Source of the DNA: an uncultured Oscillospiraceae bacterium
GTDB lineage: Bacteria > Bacillota > Clostridia > Oscillospirales > Oscillospiraceae
NCBI GenBank assembly: GCA_951801655.1
Contig: CATONV010000005.1
Location: forward strand, 1 to 61,878
DNA: 61,878 bases
Reading direction: 5' to 3'
Shown here: positions 2,238-47,494 of the stretch, piece after piece
Position numbering within the stretch: the first letter of the stretch is position 1
How the letters are laid out: each line of letters begins with the position of its first letter
Translations under genes and position numbers: made by a program
Notes under the pieces: generated by a model
What the model was told of the DNA's origin: nothing
Seen by the model: only the letters and a program-made list of their open reading frames with translations
Database searches by the model: none

Positions 2238-5200
2238 TTAATAGGTTAAAACACGGTGAATAATTTCCGCCATGTCTACCCGGGTCAGGGCCTGGGTAGG
2301 ATTCAGGCGCCCGCCCGCAGTAGGCAGATAGCCCCGCTGAACAGCAAAGGACATGGCCCCCTGGGCATAGCCGGAGACACTGCCGCCGTCGCCGTAGCCG
2401 GACAGCGTGCTGCTGTAGCCGTCGCTGGCGTTCCAGCCCATGGCCCGCATGGCCCGCTGGACCATGCAGATAGCGTCCTGTCTGGTCAGGGTGCTGTCAG
2501 GGGCGTAAAGGCCGCCGCCGATACCGCTGATAATTCCTCTGTCATACAGCGTGTTCACCGCCTGGGCGTAGTAGGCCCCGCCGGGCACGTCCCGGAAGGC
2601 CCCGCTGGACCCCGAGGGGTTCAACTCAAAAGCCTGGTAGAGCATCTGGGCAAAGTCACCGCGGCGGATGGAGTTCTCCGGACCGTATTGGCCGGTGGCC
2701 ATGCCTCGGGTGATGTTGTGGTCATAGAGGAAATCCACCGCCGCCCGCTGGGCGTCGCTGTAGCCCCCCATGTCGTTAAAGTAGGAGGAGCTGTAGGTGG
2801 GCGAGACGGTGATCATCACCTCTCCATCAAAGGTAGAGTTGTTGGATTTGGTGCCTACGTAGGGGATGGTCACCGTGCCTGTGTAGCCCGCCCGGGGGAC
2901 AAAGGTCAAATCGGAGATCAGATCGTTTCCGCTGAGCTGGTAGGACACCCCGGTGCCCGCCTGCCGGCCGTAATGGGCCGGGCTGGCGTATTGGAAGTAC
3001 AGATAACCCTCACTTGCGGCGGGCATCTGGGTAAAGCGGATGGAGCGCAGCGAATAGCTGCCTCCAAAGTCCCCGCCGTAGAAGCTCACCGGGGCGCTCC
3101 GGGTGGAGTACCGCACGGTCACATCTGCCGGCGGCCGATTCACTTCCACCTCTACCGTCCCGGTAAAGGTACTGCCGCTGGTGGGTGTGGCGGTGAAGTC
3201 GATATACACCGTTCCGGTAAAACCGGTAGCGGGAACAAAGGCCACACGGCTCAGCTCACTGGCCGTAATGGAGGTGGAGGAGGAGGTCAACCTGGTGCCC
3301 CGGTCGGAACTGGAGCGGTAGCCGCGGTACAGCGAGCCCTGGCTGGACGAGGGCAGTGTGAAGCGGACAGAGCTCATATCCCGGTCGGTCTCCCACTGGG
3401 AGAGATCGTCAAAATCCCTTCGGTCGAAGACCGCAGCGGATTTTGAGTCTGTAGAATAGCGTATATTGCCCCTGCTGGTGCTTCCGGAGTCGTTGGAACT
3501 GATATGAATTACCCCGTTGAAGGCGGCGCCGCTGGCAGACCGGCCCTCAAAGGGAATATCCACCGCCCCGGAAAAGCTGCTCGAGGCCCGGAAGGACAAA
3601 TTACTGACACGGTAACTGCCGCTGTTGCTGTATCGGGTCCCGGTGATATCAATGCGGCGGTTGCTATAGTACAGGTCCCCCTCCGTACGGTTGGGCAGGG
3701 CCTGGAAGACAATATAGTCCAGTGTGCGGCCCGTCAGGTCCTGACTCAGCCTGGTAAAGTCGCTGGTCCGGAAGGACACCGACCGGCCAGGGGCGCAGGT
3801 GTAGTTGATATCTCCCGCCCCGGTGCCGCCCCGGACATTGATCTCCACGTTGCCGGACAGCCGGGTTCCATCGGTGGCGTAGCCGGTGAAGGGAATCTTG
3901 ATAGTGCCGGTAAAGTTCTGGGCCGGGACAAAGGTCAGCCGGTCGATTCGGGGGGTGCGGGTGCCGTAGTAGTAACTAGTACCCGTTGTGGCTCGGCTCC
4001 CGGTGCTGATGGAGGAGCGGTAATCGTAATACAGCACCCCCTGGCTCTCACTGGGCAGGGAGTCAAAGAGGATAAAGCTGAGGGTGTGTCTGGAGTCCAG
4101 CACGTTCCGGCAGTAGTTGTTGAAGTGGGCGTCGTCAAAGTGGGCCACGCCCCCTTTTGTCACGTCGTAGGTCAGTCCGCCGATGGCGATGTCGTTCTCC
4201 CGGCCCACGTTGATCACCACTTGACCTGAATAAACTGCGCCGCTCTCCACCCCCTGGCCGGTATAGTAGACGGTGACAGTGCCGCTGTAGCCGGGGGCCG
4301 GGACAAACCAGATATCATTCAGGTCGCGGAGGTTGTACTGCCCGCGGGTAGAGACCAGCGTGCCGTAGTTGCCCTCATTCACGTAGTTGGTATACAGCTT
4401 GCCCTGGTTCTCTGAGGGCTGGGAGAAGGTAACATGCTTCAGGTTAACGCCCTTCATCTCCCGGCACACCCGGTTAAAGTCGTCACTGTTGAAGCGAACA
4501 GGGGTGTTGTAGGGCGTGTTGAGGGTGATGCCCGAGTCCTCCTCCACAACGCCCGACTTGCTTACGGTGAGAAGAATCTTGCAGTTGTAATTTTTGTTTT
4601 CTTCTGACACGGCGGTGTACTCAATGACCACCGGGCCCACGTACCCCGCCTTGGGGACAAAGGTGATATCCTCCAGAGACCGCTGGCCGGCGGGAATGCC
4701 GTTTTTCCGGTCGGGGTAGTAGTATATGCCTGATCCCACGCCGGAGCCGGGGGAGGATTCAGAGTTGTACTTGTAGTACAGGGTACCCTGTGTGGGGTCC
4801 ACCCTTATGCCGGTAATGTGGGACAGATTACCGCCGGCCTGAAGTGCAAATCCGGATTGCAGCTTTCCGTAGCGGAAGCTCAGGGTCTCGTCCGGTTTGA
4901 TGACAATGGTCTCTCCCTCAGGGGGGATGGTGGCGTTGGGGTCCGGGATTACCCTCACTTCAAATTCCGCCCGGAACCCAAGCTTGGTGTGGCTGACGGT
5001 AAAGGTGGCGGTGCCGGGGGTGGTGCCCACGATGGAACCTCCCATGTAGCTGGCAATGTTGGACGCGTCGGACCAGCAGGACAGCTCTCCAATGTTGGCG
5101 CCGCCGTAGCATGTAATAATCTTACTATCCTCCAGGCGGATGCTTTCGTTCTCCACAATCTCAAGGGGCAGGACGGCCTTATTCAGTTCGTAGCCGCTGA

Positions 5201-6359
5201 CCATCACCGTCAGTGTGTCTTCCACGCTTCCCCCCTGCCCATCAGCCGCCCGGGCGGTAATAACCGCCTCGCCGGGCTTGGAGGCCGTGAGTTTGTTGCC
5301 GCTGACCGAAGCCACTTCCTTGTTATCGCTGCTGGCGGATACCGCAACGCTGTAGGTCTTGCCCTGCACTTCAAACTGGGCCGTTCCCTTGCCGTTTCGG
5401 TCCCACGCAACATCTTTGGTTTCCGTTCTCTTGTCCGAATACTCAATGGTCACCTTCATCTGCATAGTCACCGAGCCCGGGCCCATCACATACGCCTCAT
5501 CCGGGTCGTCGGGCTTGGGATTGCTGATGGTGATTCCGGTGATCTGGTTCCCCTCCGGGAGAGTATCCCCGGTCGGGGGGGGACCGGGATTGTTCGGGTC
5601 ATCCGGGTCAATGCTGGAGTTGGGCCTGACAATACAGGTCACGGTTGCCGGATCCGCTCCGGGGGCACTGGCGGTAATGGTAACCTCCGTCTCCTGTGTA
5701 ATGTCAGCGGCCGGTATCAGCGTTACGGTAGGGCCCTGGCTTGGGTCCACTCTGACAACCGCAGGGTCGCTGCTGTTCCAGGTAATGCCGCTGGTCTCCT
5801 GCTTTTTTCCGTTCTCTGAGACATAAGCGCCCAGCGTCTTTGAAATGCCGGCGGTGAGATACACCTCGCTCACCGCAGCGGTGCGCTCTGTGATGGTCAC
5901 ATGGACGTCGTCCTCAATTTCAATGGTAAAGTCCATGTTTTCGCTTATGCCCCCGTATGTGGCGGTCACTGTCACCGTGGCTTCTCCCACGCCGACCGCC
6001 CTGATTCCGCCTACCGTACCGATCGGTATATATACGACTTTGGAATCACTGCTGACCCAAGAGTAGTGGGTCTCCTGCGTCACATCTCTCCAGGTTCCGT
6101 TGTCGCCGATTCTTGTGTAGACCTTTACGGCCAGCCGCTTCTCTCCTCCAAATTTCATTGTGTACTCGTCGGTGTCGATTGCCTCCACCTTAAGCTGCCT
6201 GGAATTACTCGAGGTATCCGGGGGTGTCGAGCCGGCATCGGGGCTGCCATCGGCAGCGACAGACCCGGGGGTTGCCAGCGCGATGGTGCCGATGAGTGTG
6301 AGTACCAGGATCGGGGCCAAAAGCAGGGCCGCGCAGCACTGGACCAGGGTTTTCCGCAT
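2238..6359 (-). CDS. Secreted surface protein: Ig-like repeats plus C-terminal S-layer homology domains
   Basis: A cell-surface protein of 1373 residues. The N-terminus MRKTLVQCCAALLLAPIL is a signal peptide. It is followed by bacterial Ig-like (Big_2-type) domains (VTVTATYGG..., TASKPGEAVITARA...), then at least six repeats of about 110 residues. Each repeat contains a variant of 'FVPxxGYTGTVxIxYTG...F.G.V.I.V', like the Ig-like tandem repeats of large adhesins. Three S-layer homology domains at the C-terminus (FNDMGGYSDAQRAAVDFL..., FRDVPGGAYYAQAV..., GYGDGGSVSGYA...) should bind pyruvylated wall polymer. The ATG at 6359 has AAGGAG 8 bases upstream; the GTG at 6368 would overlap the ribosome site and is rejected. 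The gene follows another S-layer-homology gene after a terminator hairpin. Ligand unknown. Confidence 0.88.
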   Translation of the reverse strand: MRKTLVQCCAALLLAPILVLTLIGTIALATPGSVAADGSPDAGSTPPDTSSNSRQLKVEAIDTDEYTMKFGGEKRLAVKVYTRIGDNGTWRDVTQETHYSWVSSDSKVVYIPIGTVGGIRAVGVGEATVTVTATYGGISENMDFTIEIEDDVHVTITERTAAVSEVYLTAGISKTLGAYVSENGKKQETSGITWNSSDPAVVRVDPSQGPTVTLIPAADITQETEVTITASAPGADPATVTCIVRPNSSIDPDDPNNPGPPPTGDTLPEGNQITGITISNPKPDDPDEAYVMGPGSVTMQMKVTIEYSDKRTETKDVAWDRNGKGTAQFEVQGKTYSVAVSASSDNKEVASVSGNKLTASKPGEAVITARAADGQGGSVEDTLTVMVSGYELNKAVLPLEIVENESIRLEDSKIITCYGGANIGELSCWSDASNIASYMGGSIVGTTPGTATFTVSHTKLGFRAEFEVRVIPDPNATIPPEGETIVIKPDETLSFRYGKLQSGFALQAGGNLSHITGIRVDPTQGTLYYKYNSESSPGSGVGSGIYYYPDRKNGIPAGQRSLEDITFVPKAGYVGPVVIEYTAVSEENKNYNCKILLTVSKSGVVEEDSGITLNTPYNTPVRFNSDDFNRVCREMKGVNLKHVTFSQPSENQGKLYTNYVNEGNYGTLVSTRGQYNLRDLNDIWFVPAPGYSGTVTVYYTGQGVESGAVYSGQVVINVGRENDIAIGGLTYDVTKGGVAHFDDAHFNNYCRNVLDSRHTLSFILFDSLPSESQGVLYYDYRSSISTGSRATTGTSYYYGTRTPRIDRLTFVPAQNFTGTIKIPFTGYATDGTRLSGNVEINVRGGTGAGDINYTCAPGRSVSFRTSDFTRLSQDLTGRTLDYIVFQALPNRTEGDLYYSNRRIDITGTRYSNSGSYRVSNLSFRASSSFSGAVDIPFEGRSASGAAFNGVIHISSNDSGSTSRGNIRYSTDSKSAAVFDRRDFDDLSQWETDRDMSSVRFTLPSSSQGSLYRGYRSSSDRGTRLTSSSTSITASELSRVAFVPATGFTGTVYIDFTATPTSGSTFTGTVEVEVNRPPADVTVRYSTRSAPVSFYGGDFGGSYSLRSIRFTQMPAASEGYLYFQYASPAHYGRQAGTGVSYQLSGNDLISDLTFVPRAGYTGTVTIPYVGTKSNNSTFDGEVMITVSPTYSSSYFNDMGGYSDAQRAAVDFLYDHNITRGMATGQYGPENSIRRGDFAQMLYQAFELNPSGSSGAFRDVPGGAYYAQAVNTLYDRGIISGIGGGLYAPDSTLTRQDAICMVQRAMRAMGWNASDGYSSTLSGYGDGGSVSGYAQGAMSFAVQRGYLPTAGGRLNPTQALTRVDMAEIIHRVLTY

Positions 6360-21762: not shown

Positions 21763-22031
21763 CAGCAAAAAGCCCCTGACTTTTTCAAGTCAGGGGCGTG
21801 TCAATCACACGCGGTACCACCCTGGTTCAGCTGACAGTCACCTGCCAGCCCTCGCAGCCTCCAACAAGGCTCCGGTCAATAACGAGACCAGCCGTCCCGC
21901 CCTACTGCAACCGTTCAAGCGGACTGCTCAGGGGCCAGTTATCCACAGCTGCTCCTCACACCGGCTCGCACCACCCGCCGGCTCTCTGCGTGGGAGGAAG
22001 CTGTCTTTTTCCCCTTCATCGCATTTGCTTG
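21763..22031 (-). promoter_or_regulatory. T-box riboswitch leader of leuA
   Basis: The minus strand carries the T-box core AGGGTGGTACCGCG (plus-strand 21810-21823), which pairs with the uncharged tRNA acceptor end. It is followed by an intrinsic terminator stem CCCCTGACTT/AAGTCAGGGG and TTTTT (about 21767-21797). The stem I region contains AGAGAGCCGG and GCGAGCCGG apical motifs. Folding the ACAGCT/AGCTGT helix leaves a loop that contains CTG, a leucine codon, as probable specifier. Uncharged tRNA-Leu should therefore favour the antiterminator. The specifier choice is inference; the T-box itself is clear. Confidence 0.93.
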
Positions 22032-30724: not shown

Positions 30725-30753
30725 TTGGCTTTTTGCCCAAGCTGTGATATAAT
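30725..30753 (+). promoter_or_regulatory. Promoter of the cobalamin-riboswitch operon
   Basis: TTGGCT at 30725-30730, 17-base spacer, TATAAT at 30748-30753, directly before the riboswitch. Confidence 0.85.
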
Positions 30754-30760
30754 CACTCCG

Positions 30761-30908
30761 CCTCAGGTGCCCGGGTAAAACATTCGGGAGAATAGGGAAG
30801 AAATACACGGTCCCGCCGCTGTGAGAGGGGAGCCGGGCTTATAAACGCCACTGGGAGACCGGGAAGGCAAAGCCGGGCCTTGATCCTCGAGTCAGAAGAC
30901 CTGCCTGG
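30761..30908 (+). promoter_or_regulatory. Cobalamin (AdoCbl-type) riboswitch
   Basis: The aptamer starts CAGGTGCCCGGGTAAAAC and includes GGGAAGAAATACACGG, GCTGTGAGAGGGGAGCCGGG, the B12 box GCCACTG at 30847-30853, GACCGGGAAGGC and the closing GTCAGAAGACCTGCCTG. The ends CAGG and CCTG pair as P1. The downstream stem CACTC/GAGTG just before AAGGAGG suggests control of translation, or of a short terminator-like structure, with B12 lowering expression. Confidence 0.96.
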
Positions 30909-30954
30909 GGAACACACACACTCATGTTGCGAGTGACAACAAGGAGGTCTATTT

Positions 30955-37654: not shown

Positions 37655-37690
37655 CCGGCCCGGAGGGTATCCCTCCGGACCGGTTTTTTG
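37655..37690. terminator. Bidirectional terminator between GtrA and the sensor-like gene array
   Basis: Stem CCGG-CCGGAGGG/CCCTCCGG-CCGG (37655-37683) followed by TTTTTT. The A-rich other side lets it serve the convergent minus-strand operon. Confidence 0.9.
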
Positions 37691-38791
37691 TCAGTTGAAC
37701 ATATCCACCATTTGAATCATATAGACAGTATCGTCCGCAAAGAAGAAGTACAGGCATGGTCCCAAGCCGTTCTCGTTGGCACAGTACCAGAGATAATCGT
37801 CCGGATAGGCCCAGGTCCAATTTTTCTCGTCGGAGAGCAGGCCGGGGTAGGCGGCCAGCACCTCTTCCCGGGTGGCCCCCACCCGGATGCCCCGGGGGGT
37901 GACCATGTCGGCGCGGCCCGTCTCCAGACGCTGGAGACTCCAGCGATTCTCTGCGGCGATATAGTATCGCAGAGCGGAGACCCCGCCATTGTCGCCGCCG
38001 CCACCTATGGACCAGTTCTCCCAGTAGTCCCCAGGCTGATAGATGGGTTCGCCCTCCTCAAAAACCGATACCTCCGGTTCAAAATCCAGGAACATGGGCT
38101 CCACCCAGTTGCCGGGGCCGATTGGGGTAGAGAAGCCGTCCCGGAACAGGCAGACCTCCAGGTCTGTCAGGCCCCAGACTGCCTGGCGGATGGCGTCCCC
38201 TGGGTCCATCCCTTCCCGGTAGTAGTCAAAGCGGACCAGGAACTCTGCGGGGCTGCCGTCTGCGTACATGCGGGACACCAGGTAAGCGGGCGACCATGCC
38301 GACCACTCCAGCGCACCTGAGCTTTGCGCATAAACGCCGCTGTAGTTGATTTGATAAAGGCCCAGAAGCTCTCCATCCAGAGTATCCGTTCCCAACAGAA
38401 TAGCGGAGTCCAGACGGTAATCCCCATCCTGAGGCGTGTCCGGGGCGTCCGCCGCCAGGTAGATGGTGGCGTTGTACATCGCCCGCAGGTATTCCAGCAC
38501 CATCTCATTAAGCCGCGCATCAGGGTCCTGGTCCGCCGGAGTACTCTGCCCGGTATTGGAGGAGGAGACAGCGGAGCCGTTTGGGGAGGAGATATCCGGG
38601 GGCGTCTCTTCCTTCATCTGGCAGGACACAATATTGCCGCAGAAAATGCACACGGAGAACATTAGGATCAAAAAGGGAATCGGCGGCCGCTTTTTGGGCC
38701 CTGAGAAAAGATTGCGGATACGGATTTCCGTCTCCTTCGCCGACCCGGACAGCTGGGTGGAAAAGGGAGTGCGGGGCATGTGTCGATTCAT
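37691..38791 (-). CDS. Array gene 5: 59-residue anchor module plus unknown ectodomain
   Basis: 366 residues. Residues 1-59 are the shared module: MPRTPFSTQLSGSAKETEIR, a basic KKRPP, a membrane helix and CGNIVSCQM. The ectodomain starts with a Ser/Pro linker, followed by LNEMVLEYLRAMYNATIYLA (resembling a lipoprotein-type alpha/beta domain) and ends with TPRGIRVGATREEVLAAYPG...YLWY...LYFFFADDTVYMIQM. That end domain is also present at the end of array gene 1. IVSC could serve as a lipobox, so it may be lipid-anchored after cleavage instead of having a retained helix. ATG 38791 has GGAGG 7 bases upstream. Last gene of the operon; function unknown. Confidence 0.82.
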   Translation of the reverse strand: MNRHMPRTPFSTQLSGSAKETEIRIRNLFSGPKKRPPIPFLILMFSVCIFCGNIVSCQMKEETPPDISSPNGSAVSSSNTGQSTPADQDPDARLNEMVLEYLRAMYNATIYLAADAPDTPQDGDYRLDSAILLGTDTLDGELLGLYQINYSGVYAQSSGALEWSAWSPAYLVSRMYADGSPAEFLVRFDYYREGMDPGDAIRQAVWGLTDLEVCLFRDGFSTPIGPGNWVEPMFLDFEPEVSVFEEGEPIYQPGDYWENWSIGGGGDNGGVSALRYYIAAENRWSLQRLETGRADMVTPRGIRVGATREEVLAAYPGLLSDEKNWTWAYPDDYLWYCANENGLGPCLYFFFADDTVYMIQMVDMFN

Positions 38792-38819
38792 AAGTACCTC
38801 CATAAGCGGCGGAAAACCG

Positions 38820-39887
38820 TCAGCGGTTTTCGGTCTTGTCAAGTTCGGGCAGGTTCATATCCTCCAAAGTCAGCTCCTGGGTGTAGGGGTTGAGCAGGCG
38901 GTTGACCAGCTCCAGGACCGGCTCCGGGTCGGGCGCTTCGCCCAGAGAGCGGTTCTCGGATACAACAGTCTCCCCAAGGGGCAGGGTGGCCGTCTCCAGG
39001 CCGGCGGACAGGTCCAGATTCACAGCCCGGCGGGCAAAGTAGAGCATGTCCGCCATAGACAGGTCGGTGTCCACATTTTGGCTGAAAATATCCACAAAGG
39101 CGTCGATTTTGGTGACGCTGTCCCAGGACAGCATTTTTTTGACCAGCGCCTCCACCAGCTGCTGCTGGGTCTGAACCCGGCTGAGATCGCCGTAGGAGAC
39201 GCCGCCGCTGTTCTTGCGGAAGCGGGTCACCTCCATGGCCGCCTGTCCGCTCAGATGGGCCGGGCCCTGCTGAAAGTGAATGGACAGGTTCTGGGCGGGG
39301 TCGTCGTAGTCCATGTCACAGGGAATGTAGAAGTCGATCCCGCCCAGCTCGTCCACCAGGGCGGCAAAACCGCCGGTGTCCACGTCGATGGAGTAGTCGA
39401 TGGGAATGCCCAGGGTGTGGGAGAGGCACTGCTCCAGGCCGCTTTCCACCCGGTTTAGGCGGACGGCCTGGCCGTCCAGGCTGACCAGGGTGTCCCGGGG
39501 TATGGAGACCAGACCGGCGGTCTGGCGCTGGGTATCGTAGCACAGCACCATAAAGGCGTCGGCGGGAGCGCCCTCGCCGGTGCCGGCAGTGAGGAGGAAG
39601 GTGTACGCCCCGTCCCGCCTCTCCAGGCGGGGAACGGCGCTGCCTTTTACGGCGGGGGCGGTTTCCTCCTGCCGGGAACCGTCCGGGGCGGAGAGGTCCG
39701 CCGGAGGGGCCATCTGGCAGGACACAATGTTGCCGCAGAAAATGCACAGAGAGAACACCAGGAGCAAAAAGGGCAGCGGCGGCCTCCTCTTGGGCCCGGA
39801 CATAATATTTTGAATGCGCAGCTCGGTTTCCCGGGCGGAGCGGGACAGAGAGGTGGAAAGGGGGGTGGGGGGCATGTTGTTGTTCAT
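38820..39887 (-). CDS. Array gene 4: anchor module plus LCP (LytR-CpsA-Psr) domain
   Basis: 355 residues with the shared N-terminal 59-residue module, then an LCP domain: DAFMVLCYDTQRQTAGLVSIPRDTLV, LNRVESGLEQCL, IDYSIDVDTGGFAALVDELGGID, and VTRFRKNSGGVSYGDLSRVQTQQQLV, which keeps the Arg/Asp residues that bind polyprenyl-pyrophosphate in LCP enzymes. LCP proteins normally transfer wall teichoic acid or capsule polymers to peptidoglycan. Here the domain is fused to the same anchor as four unrelated ectodomains in a BlaI/M56 operon, so it may act as a ligand-sensing domain, as a ligase controlled by the system, or both. Usual LCP proteins have a different anchor. ATG 39887 is preceded by AAAGGAAA. 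Confidence 0.88.
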   Translation of the reverse strand: MNNNMPPTPLSTSLSRSARETELRIQNIMSGPKRRPPLPFLLLVFSLCIFCGNIVSCQMAPPADLSAPDGSRQEETAPAVKGSAVPRLERRDGAYTFLLTAGTGEGAPADAFMVLCYDTQRQTAGLVSIPRDTLVSLDGQAVRLNRVESGLEQCLSHTLGIPIDYSIDVDTGGFAALVDELGGIDFYIPCDMDYDDPAQNLSIHFQQGPAHLSGQAAMEVTRFRKNSGGVSYGDLSRVQTQQQLVEALVKKMLSWDSVTKIDAFVDIFSQNVDTDLSMADMLYFARRAVNLDLSAGLETATLPLGETVVSENRSLGEAPDPEPVLELVNRLLNPYTQELTLEDMNLPELDKTENR

Positions 39888-39900
39888 AACGGTTTCCTTT

Positions 39901-41004
39901 CTATTCGTAAAGAATGTCGCCCAGCCACACAGCCGGGCCCAATTTATACCCGCCGTCCTCATAGATGATGGGGAAATGGGCGCTGGCCAGGTACTCCAGG
40001 GTCATGCAGGAGAAGTCCAGGCCCAGGTCACAGACAAGCCGGCCGTCTTGTTTCAGGAAACGTACCTGATTGCCTGCCTCCACCGTCCCCTTGAAGGGCT
40101 CCGCCAGCTGGGTCAGGTCCACCGTCCACTCCTGCTCTCCGCTGACAAGGCGGGCGGTGGTCCCGTCAGGGCTGGCGGTAATTTCCAGGGGGACCTCCGA
40201 GAGGTCCGGGACGGCGCAGGTCATGGTGTCCAGGTCGAAAATGTACAGGGACTGCGCATAGACCCCGGTGCCCCAGCCGTCGGTCAGGACCAGGGCCGCC
40301 TCCGGCTGGCCGTCGCCGTCCAGGTCGTCTGCCAGCAGCGTGGGATTGCTGGCAAAGTGGGCGTTTCCGTCCCAGCACAGGTGGAAGTACTCGGCCCGGT
40401 CCCCGTGCCTCAGGACGATACCCCGCCGCTGGTCCAGGTCTCCTCCCCACAGGATAGGGCTGACCAGAGTCTCCACGTCAGGCACGCTGTCCGGGTCCAC
40501 CACAAAGTAGACGGTGACATCCGTTCCCTCGTCATAGGCCACCGGCAGGAGGGTATCCCGCCAGTAGTCCCGGCGCGGGGCGCTGTATACCTCCACCGCC
40601 TCCCGGGGCAGCTCGTCCGCCGGGAGATTTTCCAGCAGGGCCATCTCCTGCTCCGTTGGAAAGTAATCCTCATAGAACCAGTCCCCGGTCTGCCCGACAT
40701 ATTTCATCAGCCCGGCGTCCAGTTCCACCGGGGTCCACCCCTCGGGCGGCCCCTCCGGAGCGGAGGCGTCCGGGGGCGCGGAGACAGACGCGGAGGAATC
40801 GCCGCTGTCAGGTACCTCCGCCTCCGCCATCTGGCAGGACACAATGTTGCCGCAGAAAATGCAGATAGAGAACATCAGAAGCAAAAAGGGCAGCGGCGGG
40901 CGCCTCTTGGGCCCGGACATGATATTGCGGATGCGGATTTCCGTCTCTCGGGCCGACCCGGAAAGGGGAGTGGAAAAGGGCGTGCGGGGCATTTTTTCGT
41001 TCAT
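39901..41004 (-). CDS. Array gene 3: anchor module plus FG-GAP-like ectodomain
   Basis: 367 residues. After the shared module and an acidic Ser/Pro linker, the ectodomain contains a segment with a calcium-binding-loop look, ADDLDGDGQPEAALVLTDG (DxDGDGxxE), as in FG-GAP/VCBS repeats, preceded by LRHGDRAEYFHLCWDG. It also has TPVELDAGLMKYVGQTGDWF and WTVDLTQLAEPFKG. No enzyme motif is seen. ATG 41004 is preceded by AAAGGAAA; 13 bases separate it from the previous stop. Likely an extracytoplasmic sensor or binding protein (inference). Confidence 0.82.
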   Translation of the reverse strand: MNEKMPRTPFSTPLSGSARETEIRIRNIMSGPKRRPPLPFLLLMFSICIFCGNIVSCQMAEAEVPDSGDSSASVSAPPDASAPEGPPEGWTPVELDAGLMKYVGQTGDWFYEDYFPTEQEMALLENLPADELPREAVEVYSAPRRDYWRDTLLPVAYDEGTDVTVYFVVDPDSVPDVETLVSPILWGGDLDQRRGIVLRHGDRAEYFHLCWDGNAHFASNPTLLADDLDGDGQPEAALVLTDGWGTGVYAQSLYIFDLDTMTCAVPDLSEVPLEITASPDGTTARLVSGEQEWTVDLTQLAEPFKGTVEAGNQVRFLKQDGRLVCDLGLDFSCMTLEYLASAHFPIIYEDGGYKLGPAVWLGDILYE

Positions 41005-41017
41005 AGCGGTTTCCTTT

Positions 41018-42352
41018 CTATCTGTCGGAGAAAAATCCGTAACCAGTCTCCAGATTGTGCAGTCCGTAGCGGCCCAGGGTGTCAGAGGAGTCCTGGAAGA
41101 TATGGCGGTCAGGCCACCAGGTCCAGAACTCGTACGCGCCGTACAGCTCGGTGCCCGGCTCATGTCCGGTAGCTCCCGGGCAGTAGAGGATGAATCCCGC
41201 GCCGGGCTCCAGGGCCTTGCCGTCTGTGCCGTTGAAGCCGTAGGGCTCGCTGGAAATATAGTGGTAGGGCTTCTCGTCCCACTCCGCGCCTACGGGGTAT
41301 TTGGTGTCCAGCGCCAGTTCCTTCAGGACCAAATACCAGGAGTTGTCGCTGAGTTGGACCATGTCCCCAAACCGCCCGTGGAACTGGCAGACATATTGAA
41401 TTTCCATGTCGGCGTCGCAGTAATCTCCTTGGAAGGTTCCGTCGCCGTGGAGGGTGAGGACAGTCTGCCAGGCCCCCGCGCCGCTGGCAAAGGTCATCTC
41501 CATAGGCTGGTCGAACAGCAGCTTCACGTCGTCCTCCGGAGCGGGCGGCGTCCAGTCCGGGGGCATAGCCGCCTGGAAGTCCCGCAGATTTTCCACCAGG
41601 GATTTTTCCGGGTCCCGGGTGAAAATTCCCGGGTAGTTGTCCAGCCAGGGCAGGCCCTCGGGCTGACATTCCTCCGCCGTCAGCTCCCCGGCCCTGTTAT
41701 CCAGGCGGATGCTGTGGGAGAGCAGCTCGTTCAGCTCCTCCATAAAGACAGCGATTTTCTCCGGATCGAAGTCCTTGTGAAAGGGGGCGTTGAAGTTGGT
41801 GTCGAACCGGACGCTGTTCCACACCGGGTTTTCCTCAAACTCGCCGCTGAAATCGGCGACGCGATAGGAGTAGTCAAAGTCGCCCTGATGCTCAAACAGG
41901 GTATAGTACAGAAGGTAGTCCTTCCCGTCCTGGGTGTACAGGCAGACGCCGGGACTTTTCCAGAGAATCCTCTCCCCGTTTTCCCAAAATTCCACGTCCC
42001 AATCAGCCCCGTAGCTGTGGTCGTGTTTGACCAGGCGGAGCTCCTCTGGAACGCCGTTGCGGTTCAGGTCTGGCTTCAGGTCCTGGACGGACAGCGGTTC
42101 GGGTCCCTTCGTCTCCGGCCGAGAGACGGCTTCCGACGGCACGGAAACCTCGGGCGGCTCCTGTTCCGTCTCCTTCATCTGACAGGACACGATATTGCCG
42201 CACAGCAGGATCATCAGGGCGGTAAATACCATCAGAGGGACCGGCGGCCGCCTCTTTGGGCCGGAGAAGATATTGCGGATGCGTATTTCCGTCTCCTTCG
42301 CCGACCCGGACAGACCGGTGGAAAAGGGGGTACGGGGCATGTTCTCTTTCAT
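41018..42352 (-). CDS. Array gene 2: anchor module plus two-part ectodomain
   Basis: 444 residues. The second of two adjacent ATGs (42352) is chosen because it makes the module 59 residues long as in the other four, with AGGAG 7 bases upstream. The ectodomain begins with DLNRNGVPEELRLV (a DxNxxGxxE loop like array gene 3), WDVEFWENGERILW and DGKDYLLYYTLFEHQGDFDY. A second domain follows with VLTLHGDGTFQGDYCDADME, a beta-rich lipocalin-like look. From memory, ectodomains of the first kind occur at the C-terminus of complete clostridial M56/BlaR1-like proteins. Function unknown. Confidence 0.82.
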   Translation of the reverse strand: MKENMPRTPFSTGLSGSAKETEIRIRNIFSGPKRRPPVPLMVFTALMILLCGNIVSCQMKETEQEPPEVSVPSEAVSRPETKGPEPLSVQDLKPDLNRNGVPEELRLVKHDHSYGADWDVEFWENGERILWKSPGVCLYTQDGKDYLLYYTLFEHQGDFDYSYRVADFSGEFEENPVWNSVRFDTNFNAPFHKDFDPEKIAVFMEELNELLSHSIRLDNRAGELTAEECQPEGLPWLDNYPGIFTRDPEKSLVENLRDFQAAMPPDWTPPAPEDDVKLLFDQPMEMTFASGAGAWQTVLTLHGDGTFQGDYCDADMEIQYVCQFHGRFGDMVQLSDNSWYLVLKELALDTKYPVGAEWDEKPYHYISSEPYGFNGTDGKALEPGAGFILYCPGATGHEPGTELYGAYEFWTWWPDRHIFQDSSDTLGRYGLHNLETGYGFFSDR

Positions 42353-42365
42353 CATCAGGCTCCTC

Positions 42366-44324
42366 TCAGGATTCCGCTTCCTTCAGCACCAGGCGGCTGA
42401 CGGCGTCGTGTTCAAAGAAGAAGATCAGGTCGGCTCCCCGGCCCTGATACCAAAGGACGTCCCCCTCCATGCCTGGGTAGGGGCCCTCTTTGATCTCCGG
42501 GTAGGCGGCGAGAACCCTGGCCCGGCTGTCCCCCATCTTAACGCCCCGGGTGGTGGGCAGGCGGCGGGTGGTGTCCAGCCAGGTGCAGAACCGGCCGTTC
42601 CAGCCGCCACGGCGGTAGCGGGCCTCGTAGCGGTCTCCGTACTCCGTCCAGGTGTCGCTGTTCTCCATCGTACCCTGGGCGGTGAACACCCCATCGTAGT
42701 TTCCCGGGCCGTAGGCGGTGGGAAAGTCGGGGTATTGCAGGTCCCACAGAGCCACGTCGTAGTCCACCAGGCCGTGGGCGGCGGCCCGGGTCTGTTTTTC
42801 GATGTCTGTTACCTCCGTTTCCGGGAGCATATAGACACACATTTCAAATTGCCGGAAGGAGGACAGCTTGAAGAAAGCCAGCTGCGTGGGCTGTTTTACT
42901 CCGTCTTTGGAACCCTCCAGGGCATAGGCTCCCATCCAGTGGGGCTCCTCCACGCAGAAGAAGCGGGGCTCCATGGCGGTGACGGTGTCTCCCGGGTCGT
43001 TTTCATCCAGCCAGGTCCGGGCCAGGTCCAACGCCTGCCGGGGGGCGGGGACTTTGGTAAAGATATTAGCCAGCTTGGGCCGGGCGGTGAGGTAGCCCGC
43101 GTCATACAGGGCCTCCACGGCATACCAGTTGTAGGGGGACAGCCCGGCCAGCAGACCCTGCTCCGGGGCGCCCTCCAGAGGGTGGTCGTAGAAGGTAGTG
43201 AGGAAGGTCATCTCCTCCCCGTCCCGGAGGAAGAGCAGATGGGTATAACCCGTGTAGTAGGAGCTTTCGCCAGGGTCACCAAACTCCACGTCCCAGGCGG
43301 AGAGGGTCAGGTTTTCCCTGTTCTTCCACGCATTGCACAGGGAGAGATGAGAGAAGTCGTTCCACTCCCCCCTCTCCTCCAGCCTTTGGATGGGCGTTCC
43401 GGCGGTAGGCATAGGGCTGGACCAATCCCCGGAGAGAGTGGCGTTCAGGACATACTCCCGGGCCGCGTCCCGCACGGCGGCGGGGACAGGGTCCACGTTC
43501 CGGGCGGTGGTGAGGGGGACCGTCCCCTGATACTCCCACTGGGGTACGGCCTGCCACTCAGGGCTCATGTTGTCCCAGCCCGGCGTGCGGCGGTAGACCT
43601 CCACCGCCCCGGGGATGGGCAGGTATTTGCAGTCCAGTTCGTCCCACTCCGATAGCTTTTGGGGCATGGCCGGGGCGGACATGGGGCTGGGGGGAAGGTT
43701 GTCCACCACCTCCAGGGTCCTGCCGTCAAAGCGGAAGTGCATGGGGGCCCCGCTACTCTCCCAACCTTGGTAAGTGGTGGAATTGGTGCAGACCAGGTGC
43801 ATCCCGTCCGCCTCCTCCCAGGTGGAGTACAGCCCGGCGTCGCCGGCGATGTTGTAGTAGTCCACCGGCTCACATTCCTGGTCGAAGGTGCCCACAAGCA
43901 GGTTGTAGAACCCCCCGGCGTGGGCCCCGGGGGTCCACATGAGCAGGAGCAGGTTCAGGTCCTCCCCCGTGGCGTCGAGGATGATCTCGCTGTAGCCGGG
44001 ACCGTCGGGCTCGGGGGAGTAGTCGTCCCGCTGCTCCAGCAGCTTGGGGACCGCCTCCTCCCAGTAGAGAGTCCACCGGGCTCTCTCGTCGGCGGGCTCC
44101 GCGGCGGAGGCATCCGGAGCGGAGATGTCGGGCACGTCCGCCTCCGCCATCTGGCAGGATACAATATTGCCGCAGAACAGGATCAGCAGGACGGTAAGCA
44201 CCATAACCGGAACCGGCGGCCGCTTTTTGGGCCCGGAGAAGATGTTGCGAATGCGCAGTTCCGTCTCCCGGGCCGAACCAGACAGCCCGGTGGAGAAGGG
44301 GGTGCGTGGCATCTTGTTACTCAT
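42366..44324 (-). CDS. Array gene 1: anchor module plus long ectodomain
   Basis: 652 residues, the longest of the five. The shared module (MSNKMPRTPFSTGLSGSARE, helix, CGNIVSCQM) leads into an Asp/Ala/Ser linker. A region rich in aromatic beta strands follows (YSEIILDATGEDLNLLLLMW, AWDVEFGDPGESSYYTGYTH), then an RGVKMGDSRARVLAAYP end domain shared with array gene 5. The ATG at 44324 lies inside the 3' end of the M56 protease gene: ATGAGTAA holds both this start and the protease stop, so the two are translationally coupled. AAAGGAGAG precedes it. The gene order places it where a BlaR1 sensor domain would be if the protein were continuous. Confidence 0.84.
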   Translation of the reverse strand: MSNKMPRTPFSTGLSGSARETELRIRNIFSGPKKRPPVPVMVLTVLLILFCGNIVSCQMAEADVPDISAPDASAAEPADERARWTLYWEEAVPKLLEQRDDYSPEPDGPGYSEIILDATGEDLNLLLLMWTPGAHAGGFYNLLVGTFDQECEPVDYYNIAGDAGLYSTWEEADGMHLVCTNSTTYQGWESSGAPMHFRFDGRTLEVVDNLPPSPMSAPAMPQKLSEWDELDCKYLPIPGAVEVYRRTPGWDNMSPEWQAVPQWEYQGTVPLTTARNVDPVPAAVRDAAREYVLNATLSGDWSSPMPTAGTPIQRLEERGEWNDFSHLSLCNAWKNRENLTLSAWDVEFGDPGESSYYTGYTHLLFLRDGEEMTFLTTFYDHPLEGAPEQGLLAGLSPYNWYAVEALYDAGYLTARPKLANIFTKVPAPRQALDLARTWLDENDPGDTVTAMEPRFFCVEEPHWMGAYALEGSKDGVKQPTQLAFFKLSSFRQFEMCVYMLPETEVTDIEKQTRAAAHGLVDYDVALWDLQYPDFPTAYGPGNYDGVFTAQGTMENSDTWTEYGDRYEARYRRGGWNGRFCTWLDTTRRLPTTRGVKMGDSRARVLAAYPEIKEGPYPGMEGDVLWYQGRGADLIFFFEHDAVSRLVLKEAES

Positions 44325-45243
44325 CGGATACTCTCCTTTCTTTGTCCTGCAATCTGGCCACAGCGGCCAGGATGGTCTGGCCGTAGGCGGAGTAATCCTG
44401 GGGAGACAACAGGCGCAAGGCGTCTTCATCGCAGGCCAGCTCGGTGTCCCTCTCCACCAGGCGGACCATAAGCCACATCAGGGGGTTGAACCAGTACAGG
44501 GCGTTAACCCACATGGCCCAGGTTTTGAGCCAGATATCTCCCCGGCGGTAGTGGGTAAGCTCATGGAGAAGGGAGAACCCCAGTTCCTCGCCGGTAATCT
44601 TCCCCTGGGGCAGAAGAATGGCAGGACGGAGGGTTCCGGCCAGTATGGGCACCTTCAGCCCCTGGCACATCAGCAGCCGGGGCCGCCGGTGAAGCCCCAG
44701 CTGGTCGCCCAAGTGGTTGAAGGCGTCCACTGCGTCCCAATTGTCCACTGGAGAGGACCAGCGGTGCAGCCAGCGAAGAAACCGCAGATGGGCCGCCCCG
44801 TTCCAAACCAGCATCACTGCCGCCCCGGTCAGCCAAACTGCGATCAGAATGAGGGAGAGGTCAGCACTCCTCCATTTTCCAGGGGCGGGAGATATTGGGG
44901 GCGGGGCGGCGGAGTCCTCCCCGGAGGGGCCGGGCTGGGCCTGTCCATGCTGCGGGGCGTCGGGGAGAACGGGGGTACTCTCGCTGCCGGGAGAGTTGGG
45001 TGCGGTGGGCTGCTGGACAACGGCCGGCGGATTGGGGACGTCCACCTGGATCGGGGCCCGGGCCTCCCCCTGGAAAGCCAGGGGCAGGGGGACGGCCAGC
45101 CGCAGGCAGAGCAGCAGCCAGCCCCAGCACCGCCATTTGGCGCCGTATCGGGCCCTGGTGGACCGACCCGCCCAGGCCAGCAAAAAAACGGCGGCGGAGC
45201 CGCCTAGAGTGAGAGTCCCCAGGATGAGCAGAATTTGGTCCAT
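44317..45243 (-). CDS. BlaR1/MecR1-type M56 membrane metalloprotease lacking a sensor domain
   Basis: 308 residues. N-terminal membrane helices (ILLILGTLTLGGSAAVFLLA and WGWLLLCLRLAVPLPL), a Pro/Ser-rich extracytoplasmic loop (about 65-122), a third helix (LSLILIAVWLTGAAVMLV), then the zinc protease domain with HELTHYRRGD (227-236) and ERDTELACDEDAL (third ligand Glu near 268). The protein stops at ERRVSDE, just after the protease domain. Classical BlaR1 continues with a fourth helix and an external sensor, and autocleaves at Arg293-Arg294; here Arg303-Arg304 is the natural end. It probably cleaves the BlaI-like repressor. ATG 45243 shares its A with the BlaI-gene TGA; GTG 45246 is the alternative. 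Confidence 0.9.
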   Translation of the reverse strand: MDQILLILGTLTLGGSAAVFLLAWAGRSTRARYGAKWRCWGWLLLCLRLAVPLPLAFQGEARAPIQVDVPNPPAVVQQPTAPNSPGSESTPVLPDAPQHGQAQPGPSGEDSAAPPPISPAPGKWRSADLSLILIAVWLTGAAVMLVWNGAAHLRFLRWLHRWSSPVDNWDAVDAFNHLGDQLGLHRRPRLLMCQGLKVPILAGTLRPAILLPQGKITGEELGFSLLHELTHYRRGDIWLKTWAMWVNALYWFNPLMWLMVRLVERDTELACDEDALRLLSPQDYSAYGQTILAAVARLQDKERRVSDE

Positions 45244-45611
45244 CACCGCTGCCCTCCGTTCAGCTGATTCAAAAGGGCCTGGAGCTCCTCCAGTTCCCCC
45301 CTGCTCATCCCCTCCCGGGCCAGGGCGGCCACAAAGTTCCGTGGGGAGCCGTACAGCCGGTCCAGCACCGCCCGGCTGTCAAAGGACTGGTAGTCCTCCC
45401 GGTCCACCAGAGGGGTGTATAGATTACTCTTGCCCTCCCGGCGCACGGCTACAAAGCCCTTATCCGCCAGGCGGGAGAGGTAGGTGTTGATGGTGTTGGC
45501 GGCCCAGCCGAAGGGGGCAAGTCTGTCCTCCAAAAGGGCGCGGGGGGTATCGGGCCCGGTGGCCCACAGGGCCTTCATAACCTCCAGCTCGGTATCGGGC
45601 AGTCGTTTCAT
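45243..45611 (-). CDS. BlaI/MecI family repressor
   Basis: 122 residues of winged-helix BlaI type: LPDTELEVMKALWATG, APFGWAANTINTYLSRLADKGFVAVRREG, then a C-terminal dimerisation region. Asn92-Phe93 in SPRNFVAALARE matches the Asn-Phe dipeptide at which BlaI and MecI are cut by the BlaR1/MecR1 system (Asn101-Phe102 in staphylococci). It should repress the operon through the two dyads upstream. The ribosome site before ATG 45611 is weak (AAGTGG), consistent with low repressor levels. No beta-lactamase gene is nearby, so the inducing signal need not be a beta-lactam. Confidence 0.93.
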   Translation of the reverse strand: MKRLPDTELEVMKALWATGPDTPRALLEDRLAPFGWAANTINTYLSRLADKGFVAVRREGKSNLYTPLVDREDYQSFDSRAVLDRLYGSPRNFVAALAREGMSRGELEELQALLNQLNGGQR

Positions 45612-45623
45612 ACAATCACATCC

Positions 45624-45674
45624 ACTTCAAATGTAGTTAAATATTATACTACGCTTGAAGTAGATGAGCGTCAA
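45624..45674 (-). promoter_or_regulatory. Promoter of the blaI-like operon with two BlaI-type operators
   Basis: Minus-strand -35 TTGACG (45669-45674), 17-base spacer, -10 TAGTAT (45646-45651). The plus strand reads ACTTCAAATGTAGT at 45624-45637 and, inverted, ACTACGCTTGAAGT at 45648-45661; the two differ at only two central bases, and their centres are 24 bases apart. The ACTAC/GTAGT half-sites resemble the TACTACA/TGTAGTA dyads of BlaI and MecI operators. One copy covers the spacer/-10, the other lies just past the start site. Confidence 0.75.
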
Positions 45675-45895
45675 GTTACAGTATGGTTACAAAAGCAACA
45701 ACTTTTGACCGCATCTTAAAAAAACCTTCACGGATTTTTCATAGACTTTTCTTCCAGGCCATGGTAGAATATCATGTAGTATAAGGAAAAGTGTATCCAC
45801 CTCTGTTTGAGCGACTGTCTGCTGGGGAATCATCACTTCGGGGGCAAAACAGCGGCGGAGACGGACGCGCCTTGGGGCGCACAATGGAGGTAGGT
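45662..45895. other. Intergenic region between the blaI-like gene and the TagA-type gene
   Basis: Holds the -35 region of the blaI-like promoter. Near 45743-45771 is a weak plus-strand promoter candidate TAGACT-17-TAGAAT. A single ATGTAGTAT, similar to one operator half, lies at 45774-45782. No other gene is supported. Confidence 0.4.
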
Positions 45896-47311: not shown

Positions 47312-47494
47312 TCAGCAGCCGCAGTCGTTGTTGCAGCCGCAGTCATTGTTACAGCCACAGCCGTTGTTGCAGCCGCAGCCACAGTTGTTGCAGCCGCATC
47401 CATTGTTATTGCCGCCCCAGCCGAACAGAATGATGATCAAAATGATGATCCACAGCGCGCTGTTGCCGCCCCAACCGTTGTTCCCACAGAACAT
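47312..47494 (-). CDS. Cys/Asn/Gly-rich mini-protein with a membrane helix (60 aa)
   Basis: MFCGNNGWGGNSALWIIILI opens the protein; the hydrophobic run WIIILIIILFGW could span the membrane. The last 30 residues are a regular array of CGCNN/CGC units (NGCGCNNGCGCNNDCGC pattern) with 11 cysteines. AGAGGTGAAG precedes the ATG at good spacing, which supports a real gene rather than a low-complexity shadow. The layout of short hydrophobic segment plus Gly-rich stretch recalls small YjcZ-like spore proteins, but the Cys array is unusual and suggests metal binding or disulfide-linked coat or wall material. No firm family. Confidence 0.68.
   Translation of the reverse strand: MFCGNNGWGGNSALWIIILIIILFGWGGNNNGCGCNNCGCGCNNGCGCNNDCGCNNDCGC

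Follow-up and report, generated by a model that had tools for sequence, protein, structure and literature searches.

Organization of the seven-gene unit

The window analyzed here, a stretch of 61,878 nucleotides from an uncultured Oscillospiraceae bacterium, harbors a unit of seven genes encoding a BlaI-type repressor (blaI), a protease of the M56 family, and five proteins, g1 to g5, which all begin with the same module of 59 residues followed by an ectodomain. The seven genes are located on the minus strand in this order. Sequence comparisons indicate that the M56 protease and the modules correspond to two consecutive parts of a receptor chain of the BlaR1 type. The modules of g1 to g5 can be aligned without gaps, show 69-81% identity to that of g1, and share 34 invariant columns. 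A preliminary description of this DNA had listed a blaI repressor gene, an M56 gene ending after the zinc domain, and five module genes on the same strand, which was confirmed by Pfam searches and alignment. The seven genes fill the span that it had assigned to the unit, but the promoter, two operator half-sites, and the terminator lie just outside this span (Table 1).

The stop codon of the M56 gene overlaps the ATG of g1, and a sequence resembling a ribosome-binding site (AAAGGAG) is present upstream of g1. A programmed frameshift joining the two frames, which are +1 apart and overlap at ATGAGTAA, was considered and rejected. M56 and g1 were read as two separate genes, because the overlap is accompanied by AAAGGAG and because the C-termini of 55 split M56 proteins lie 6-23 residues past the tyrosine motif (see below). 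Spacing, promoter, and terminator suggest that the seven genes are transcribed as a single mRNA. A sixth match to the module in the genome (E 0.002, and 1.2e-4 in a second search) was discarded, as it represents a frame of 75 residues antisense to a frame that looks transporter-like by eye. We take the five modules of the window to be the only real copies found in the assembly, which is 89% complete.

Table 1. Genes and regulatory features of the blaI-M56-g1-g5 unit, with positions in the window.
Feature	Position	Strand	Remarks
Direct repeat TGTAAC-N5-TGTAAC	45675..45691	-	Abuts -35 box; fits WalR consensus TGTWAH-N5-TGTWAH
-35 box TTGACG and -10 box TAGTAT	45669..45674 (-35 box); -10 box ends at 45646	-	Layout conserved
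BlaI operator half 1 (putative)	45648..45661	-	ACTTCAAGCGTAGT on minus strand; between -35 and -10
BlaI operator half 2 (putative)	45624..45637	-	ACTACATTTGAAGT on minus strand; best match of the genome
blaI, BlaI/MecI-type repressor, 122 residues	45243..45611	-	PF03965 E 8.6e-26; MecI 1okr E 7e-10
M56 protease, 309 residues	44317..45246	-	PF05569 E 2.9e-42, profile positions 3-270 of 296
g1, module (44148-44324) and 593-residue ectodomain of unknown fold	42366..44324	-	
g2, module (42176-42352) and ectodomain	41018..42355	-	
g3, module (40828-41004) and ectodomain with one DLDGDGQPE stretch	39901..41004	-	
g4, module (39711-39887) and LytR-CpsA-Psr (LCP) ectodomain	38820..39887	-	
g5, module (38615-38791) and ectodomain, C-terminal domain in common with g1	37691..38791	-	
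Intrinsic-terminator-like site, 13-pair stem	37655..37683	-	Directly after g5

The module is related to the BlaR1 segment following the zinc domain

According to excerpts of PMC9834060, residues 271-289 of BlaR1 form an autocleavage loop that joins helices α8 and α9 and is cut between Ser283 and Phe284; an older assignment placed the cleavage between Arg293 and Arg294 (excerpt of PMC3356374). The loop fills the active site and, whether cut or uncut, is incompatible with BlaI binding. Helices α9 and α10 are domain-swapped in the dimer and Arg294' of α9 pairs with the active-site residue Asp246 of the partner. In Bacillus licheniformis, double mutation of both arginines severely reduced the activity (these points likewise from excerpts of PMC9834060).

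The module had initially been interpreted as the BlaR1-type linker plus the last membrane helix, and a profile search for modules fused to M56 in relatives of the window bacterium supported this assignment. In a first set of 18 loci, which were picked by eye among the weaker module matches, mostly for long frames, with the remaining weak matches (short frames above all) left out, M56 and the module are encoded in one frame in 16 cases and two loci (L078, L084) are split arrays. An order-wide draw yielded 11 loci, ten from other families and one (L204) from the same family; nine of them were fused, eight of which belong to other families. The remaining two are the split array L195 and L205, which proved to be a short, unrelated frame. 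Alignment of 16 split modules with 15 fused linkers by hhalign resulted in a probability of 98.8 (E 6e-17, 54 columns). Between the fused relative L073 and BlaR1 of Staphylococcus aureus (8exp), the alignment (E 1.4e-7) extends across the autocleavage loop and past Arg294. By these comparisons, the module is a homologue of the BlaR1 stretch behind the zinc domain, comprising the autocleavage loop, helix α9, and the last membrane helix.

In the alignment with BlaR1, the module starts some dozen residues N-terminal to the scissile bond. Arg24 of the module, the equivalent of BlaR1 Arg294 in the alignment, is present in all 137 modules and in all 16 fused proteins; no other column is invariant when 86 full-length module proteins sampled from the different families are compared. 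All 137 modules have Leu, Phe, or Met in column 14, which is equivalent to P1', and Phe or Leu in column 10, which is equivalent to P4. AlphaFold models of g2 and g5 both place helices at approximately residues 18-30 and 38-54. Two other M56 proteins of this genome, detected with the Pfam model, possess loop, arginine, and helix in one chain as judged by eye.

In locus L176 of genome G035, one frame (4489-5742) joins the N-terminal 34 residues of BlaI to a module. This natural fusion has the appearance of a deletion that took out M56 at a shared stretch of DTPR-like sequence.

The M56 protease ends before the autocleavage loop

The HELTH...D, ELACD, and AYG motifs are intact in the M56 protease of the window, with the equivalents of HExxH, ExxxD, Asp210, and Tyr261 being present, and the protein matches BlaR1 (8exp) with an E value of 0.011. 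Its C-terminus is located 16 residues past AYGQTIL, and the autocleavage loop, α9, and the last membrane helix are encoded by separate genes instead. In a motif search, 56 of 60 non-fused M56 frames in module loci were found to keep HExxH, Asp210, ExxxD, and Tyr261. Of these, 55 end 6-23 residues after the tyrosine motif; the remaining one has a tail of 403 residues and was taken as a second M56 protein in L184. The four frames that failed in the motif search are one of L181 (one residue off, different end), two cut by contig ends (L093, L123), and a second, degenerate M56 in L113. Judged by these motifs and chain ends, the split protease retains everything except what the modules carry.

The chain had previously been suggested to be broken at about the natural cleavage point, then assigned to Arg293-Arg294. 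This proposal had to be revised, as the assignment is outdated by that to Ser283-Phe284 (excerpt of PMC9834060) and the chain is broken before the autocleavage loop. Since the break lies before the loop, the loop, the scissile site, and the catalytic arginine have all moved with the module.

Distribution and phylogeny of split arrays

Of the 64 genomes of the genus, 47 contained module matches at an E value of 0.01 (some of these matches are fused proteins or due to chance), and so did 37 of 300 genomes drawn from the family (22 of 106 genera). The inspected split arrays come from ten genera of the family (genus labels g1, g20, g21, g23, g50, g64, g66, g74, g87, and g89), and a further one was found in a genome of another family. 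Named carriers are the Oscillospiraceae-type bacteria Flintibacter, Lawsonibacter, and Pseudoflavonifractor. As arrays are carried by a named isolate, Flintibacter muris DSM 110149 with seven modules, and by several Lawsonibacter assemblies, the array is no assembly artefact.

Among 66 fetched module loci, some of which are pieces of one array (G011:C324 is outside this set), 58 contain M56, in agreement with the earlier expectation that the array is conserved beside blaI and M56. BlaI and M56 are both present in 54 of the 66 loci, together with one to seven modules. The eight loci without M56 include four at contig ends (L103, L177, L180, L182) and L122, where the first module is located about 1.5 kb from the contig end and no M56 was seen in this interval; L166, L175, and L176 are true exceptions. 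One or two module genes are located between blaI and M56 in four arrays (L121, L123, L126, L185), showing that the gene order is not fixed. Orphan modules were observed in L175 (G030) and L166 (G045): one of these loci has neither BlaI nor M56 within 13 kb in a single-contig genome, and in the other one BlaI is directly followed by the module, with M56 being absent. In L181, a partial module is present at the contig end on the opposite strand.

In a tree of 76 M56 domains (54 split and 22 fused; L195 was too short to be included), three changes between the split and the fused state are required, compared to a mean of 19 in shuffles. Of the 54 split sequences, 49 form one clade (100/99), and 18% of the bootstrap trees have a single change between the two states. 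The chain was probably split a single time and long ago, at a point behind helix α8 of the zinc domain but ahead of the autocleavage loop. Among the open-access papers listed for BlaR1, BlaI, or M56, nothing was found on a BlaR1 that is split and has more than one partner.

Ectodomains and membrane anchor

The ectodomains had been thought to diverge completely, which does not hold. A C-terminal domain is common to g1 and g5 (BLAST E 2.5e-6, with 28.8% identity in a stretch of 177 residues), and g4 contains a recognizable LCP domain, which matches PF03816 (E 1.9e-28, 99.9 bits versus a cut-off of 24.6) and TIGR00350 (94.6 bits versus 62.3) and in the structure database 3nxh (E 4.5e-25) and TagV (6uf3, E 4.6e-25). 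By these matches, the g4 ectodomain is an LCP glycopolymer transferase domain with predicted transferase activity. In the Pfam and NCBIfam scans, g4 was the only one of the five window proteins to be assigned to a curated family. g1 had no match in Pfam or NCBIfam at E 1 and no sequence match in the PDB at E 1, the Pfam scan of g3 gave no match, and when profiles of g1, g2, and g5 were compared with the sequences of the PDB, nothing was obtained at E 0.1 or better. The model of g2 looks like a two-domain ectodomain with a beta-barrel as distal part, and a Foldseek search with it gave no match at E 0.001; the model of g5 is poor, with a predicted local distance difference test score of 55.5.

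A penicillin-binding sensor domain (class D beta-lactamase-like) was found neither in the five window proteins by Pfam and NCBIfam nor in the 86 scanned module proteins of about 137 collected. Eight of these 86 proteins gave XAC2610-like matches (best E 7.9e-13). Of ten proteins examined singly, four scored 21.6-34.4 bits and were under the cut-off of 35; the member with the best E value among the eight may exceed 35. No XAC2610 match was obtained for the window proteins, and the reading as lysozyme inhibitor is only a lead, for sister arrays alone. The 137 module proteins fall into 36 ectodomain groups by a stricter, threshold-dependent community split (single-linkage clustering merged 121 of the 137), and most arrays mix different groups.

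The membrane helix of the module ends with a strict lipobox ([LVI][ASTVI][GAS]C) in 128 of 137 modules (133 with a loose pattern) and in 13 of 16 fused proteins. The lipobox, which reads IVSC in the five window modules, is followed by a stretch rich in Pro, Ala, Glu, and Ser. The outside parts may end as lipoproteins, with the module staying in the membrane. A cut in this region is also described for BlaR1, which is processed by the signal peptidase SpsB just past the last membrane helix at Gly331 (excerpt of PMC9834060).

Promoter and operators

The promoter elements upstream of blaI have a common order, namely direct repeats, TTGAC, operator half 1, -10 box, and operator half 2 (consensus in 36 of 38 upstream regions). 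The exact operator pattern ACTACANNTGAAGT was found 46 times in the 64 genomes, compared to 12 matches for the reversed control. As the pattern stems from these promoters, the informative point is the lack of exact matches at other places: all of the 46 are located 13-60 bp upstream of the blaI start in a fetched locus, and all 68 operator matches in the fetched loci fall within 90 bp upstream of it. With at most one mismatch, the window genome contains only two matches, both at the promoter described here; with two mismatches, eight more were obtained, compared to 28 for the control. Judged by these sites, BlaI seems to control its own operon only. As BlaI operators were found solely at the promoter of the unit itself, the five module proteins are also a regulated output, a possibility that the preliminary description had already raised. 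The regions upstream of blaI in fused loci contain other palindromes and different-looking operators.

The direct repeats next to the -35 box correspond to the consensus of WalR, TGTWAH-N5-TGTWAH, and WalR governs cell-envelope genes (excerpt of PMC9210968). This pattern occurs upstream of 22 of 38 blaI genes in module loci and of none of the 14 in fused loci. The number for the module loci rises to 26 with a related pattern and to 32 with a loose one. The window repeats, which fit the consensus, are a candidate WalR site. Other OmpR-type regulators bind similar repeats.

Three further features were noticed elsewhere in the window: a frame of 60 residues (47312-47494, minus strand) with a hydrophobic stretch followed by Cys-Gly-Cys-Asn-Asn repeats, a T-box leader (21789-22028, minus strand), and a cobalamin riboswitch (30748-30922, plus strand), the latter two with scores above the Rfam gathering threshold.

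Module similarity within arrays

Comparison of 23 arrays of the genus revealed that modules preceding different ectodomains in the same array are 81% identical (151 pairs), compared to 69% for modules preceding the same ectodomain family in other arrays (352 pairs) and 66% for modules sharing neither (3677 pairs). For ectodomains of the same family, the identity amounts to 52% (349 pairs that gave a BLAST match). In 54 of 92 cases, the nearest module is one of the same array that precedes another ectodomain family. Such likeness of the modules within an array is as expected if they have to fit a shared docking partner. For the same three classes, identity at fourfold-degenerate sites is 0.73, 0.61, and 0.60, and that within the window 0.65. 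This matching trend shows that copying at the DNA level contributes.

Beyond the arrays of L133 (12568-13461) and L140 (14605-14844), apparent decayed remnants of g5-like genes were observed, suggesting gene loss.

Proposed mechanism and alternative explanations

We consider it highly probable that the module proteins dock on M56 in trans and thereby provide the loop, the arginine, and the last membrane helix. This proposal draws on the homology of the module, the pieces missing in the protease, the invariant arginine, the conserved gene order, and the exact operator confined to the operon, all read from sequence. Any of the five module proteins would be able to dock on the single M56 protease, because each of them carries loop, α9, and last membrane helix at its N-terminus. 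Upon docking, the cuttable loop would plug the active site and the arginine would be supplied in trans, like the swapped α9 between the chains of the BlaR1 dimer. Removal of the plug, be it by withdrawal or by cutting and expulsion, would allow M56 to cleave BlaI, and the operon would be induced. As no other operon seems to be under BlaI control, induction would increase the supply of these very surface proteins. If surface proteins are occupied or lost at the envelope, M56 would become unplugged and the operon would run until the free pool is restored. The complete sequence of docking, plugging, arginine in trans, and homeostat appears fairly likely to us, with the direction of the signal being its weakest step. 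A more far-reaching reading, which we hold to be somewhat less likely than not, is that the unit acts as a combinatorial envelope homeostat, in which one protease and one repressor read the free pool of several different, swappable surface lipoproteins and restore this pool by inducing the operon.

Several observations weigh against this proposal. Three loci away from contig ends (L166 in G045, L175 in G030, and L176 in G035) contain modules without M56. At the position of the near-invariant P1' Phe of the BlaI cut site, as placed by alignment with MecI, the window protein and nearly all other BlaI sequences, from split and fused loci alike, have Leu; the region is weakly conserved. The fused proteins were mostly found via module matches, and their 16 of 16 arginines are therefore partly a result of selection. 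The module profile failed to detect the two other M56 proteins of the genome, whose alignment was made by eye only, and AlphaFold modeled the module region of both g2 and g5 with low confidence (28-64 in blocks of ten residues). The operator pattern was derived from these same promoters and scanned without mismatches, so that degenerate targets would be missed. As judged from the fourfold-degenerate sites, the modules owe their homogeneity in part to gene conversion or recent duplication, for which no docking is required. Finally, the lipobox could mean that the module is removed as a signal peptide.

The main alternative assumes the same parts and the same docking with the opposite emphasis. 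In this sensor hub, each ectodomain would be a dedicated sensor that binds its own external cue, and the signal would pass via the module to activate the shared M56 and BlaI cleavage. We regard this as rather unlikely and prefer the homeostat. None of the scanned ectodomains has a penicillin-binding sensor domain, few match curated families, and a VtrC/ToxS match was below the caution level of the tool. Moreover, no separate target gene of BlaI was found, and a pure hub would sense only to make sensors. Both the homeostat and the sensor hub predict that M56 alone is no regulated BlaI protease.

Alternatively, the module proteins might be substrates, with M56 cutting the module loops for the release or maturation of surface lipoproteins; the module would then serve only as M56 recognition tag and lipoprotein signal peptide. 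Such a role would fit the retained pattern of the scissile site in columns 10 and 14 and the strict lipobox (128 of 137 modules, 13 of 16 fused proteins) with its adjacent Pro/Ala/Glu/Ser-rich stretch. However, the lipobox is nearly as common in the fused receptors and hence not specific for substrates, a tag has no obvious need for the equivalent of Arg294, which is the one invariant residue, and repressor and operators are retained in most arrays. We therefore consider this explanation improbable. It is very improbable that unrelated surface proteins merely share an export segment through duplication or gene conversion and are co-operonic with BlaI and M56 by circumstance, a view which would account for the homogenization at fourfold-degenerate sites, the lipobox, the turnover of ectodomains, and the decayed remnants, but leaves unexplained the homology of the segment to the M56 tail, the absence of this tail in 55 of 56 motif-complete split M56 proteins, and the never-varying Arg24.

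Comparison with known systems

The unit shares with the BlaR1/BlaI system of S. aureus (8exp) the BlaI-type repressor, the M56 zinc site with the same catalytic residues, and the succession of loop, α9 with Arg294, and last membrane helix before the outside domain, and the lipobox of the window type is located at about the same place as the signal-peptidase cut just past the helix of BlaR1 (system and cut as described in excerpts of PMC9834060). In contrast to BlaR1, which is one chain with one penicillin-binding sensor, the chain is split before the loop and each protease has one to seven partners; also unlike BlaR1, neither a penicillin-binding domain nor a separate target gene was found here. 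Fused BlaI-M56 receptors of the same family or order (e.g., L069-L077 and L196-L204) have the same linker, arginine, helix, and gene pair and mostly a lipobox, but differ by a single ectodomain within the protease chain and by different-looking operators upstream of blaI. One of 16 scanned fused receptors contains a Peptidase_M23 domain. As judged by eye, this is the fused BlaI-M56 receptor that the window bacterium itself encodes on contig C28 (L007), whose outside part appears Peptidase_M23 (LytM)-like.

The coupling of outside sensing by BlaR1 to cleavage of BlaI inside the cell is named as an outstanding question in an excerpt of PMC9834060. As the protease no longer shares a chain with plug, arginine, and outside domain, gain, loss, or exchange of each of these is possible at the level of genes. 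Provided that docking is confirmed, the roles of the autocleavage loop and of Arg294 become testable by mixing subunits.

BlaR1 signals via direct proteolysis of the repressor. If docking is true, such one-component proteolytic signaling can become a many-to-one device. A comparable variety of outside domains is found in the RsgI-type anti-sigma factors of cellulolytic clostridia, which are paralogues with a conserved cytoplasmic and membrane part and different outside domains. Each RsgI-type protein has its own sigma factor, whereas in the system of the window a single pair of protease and repressor serves all members of the set.

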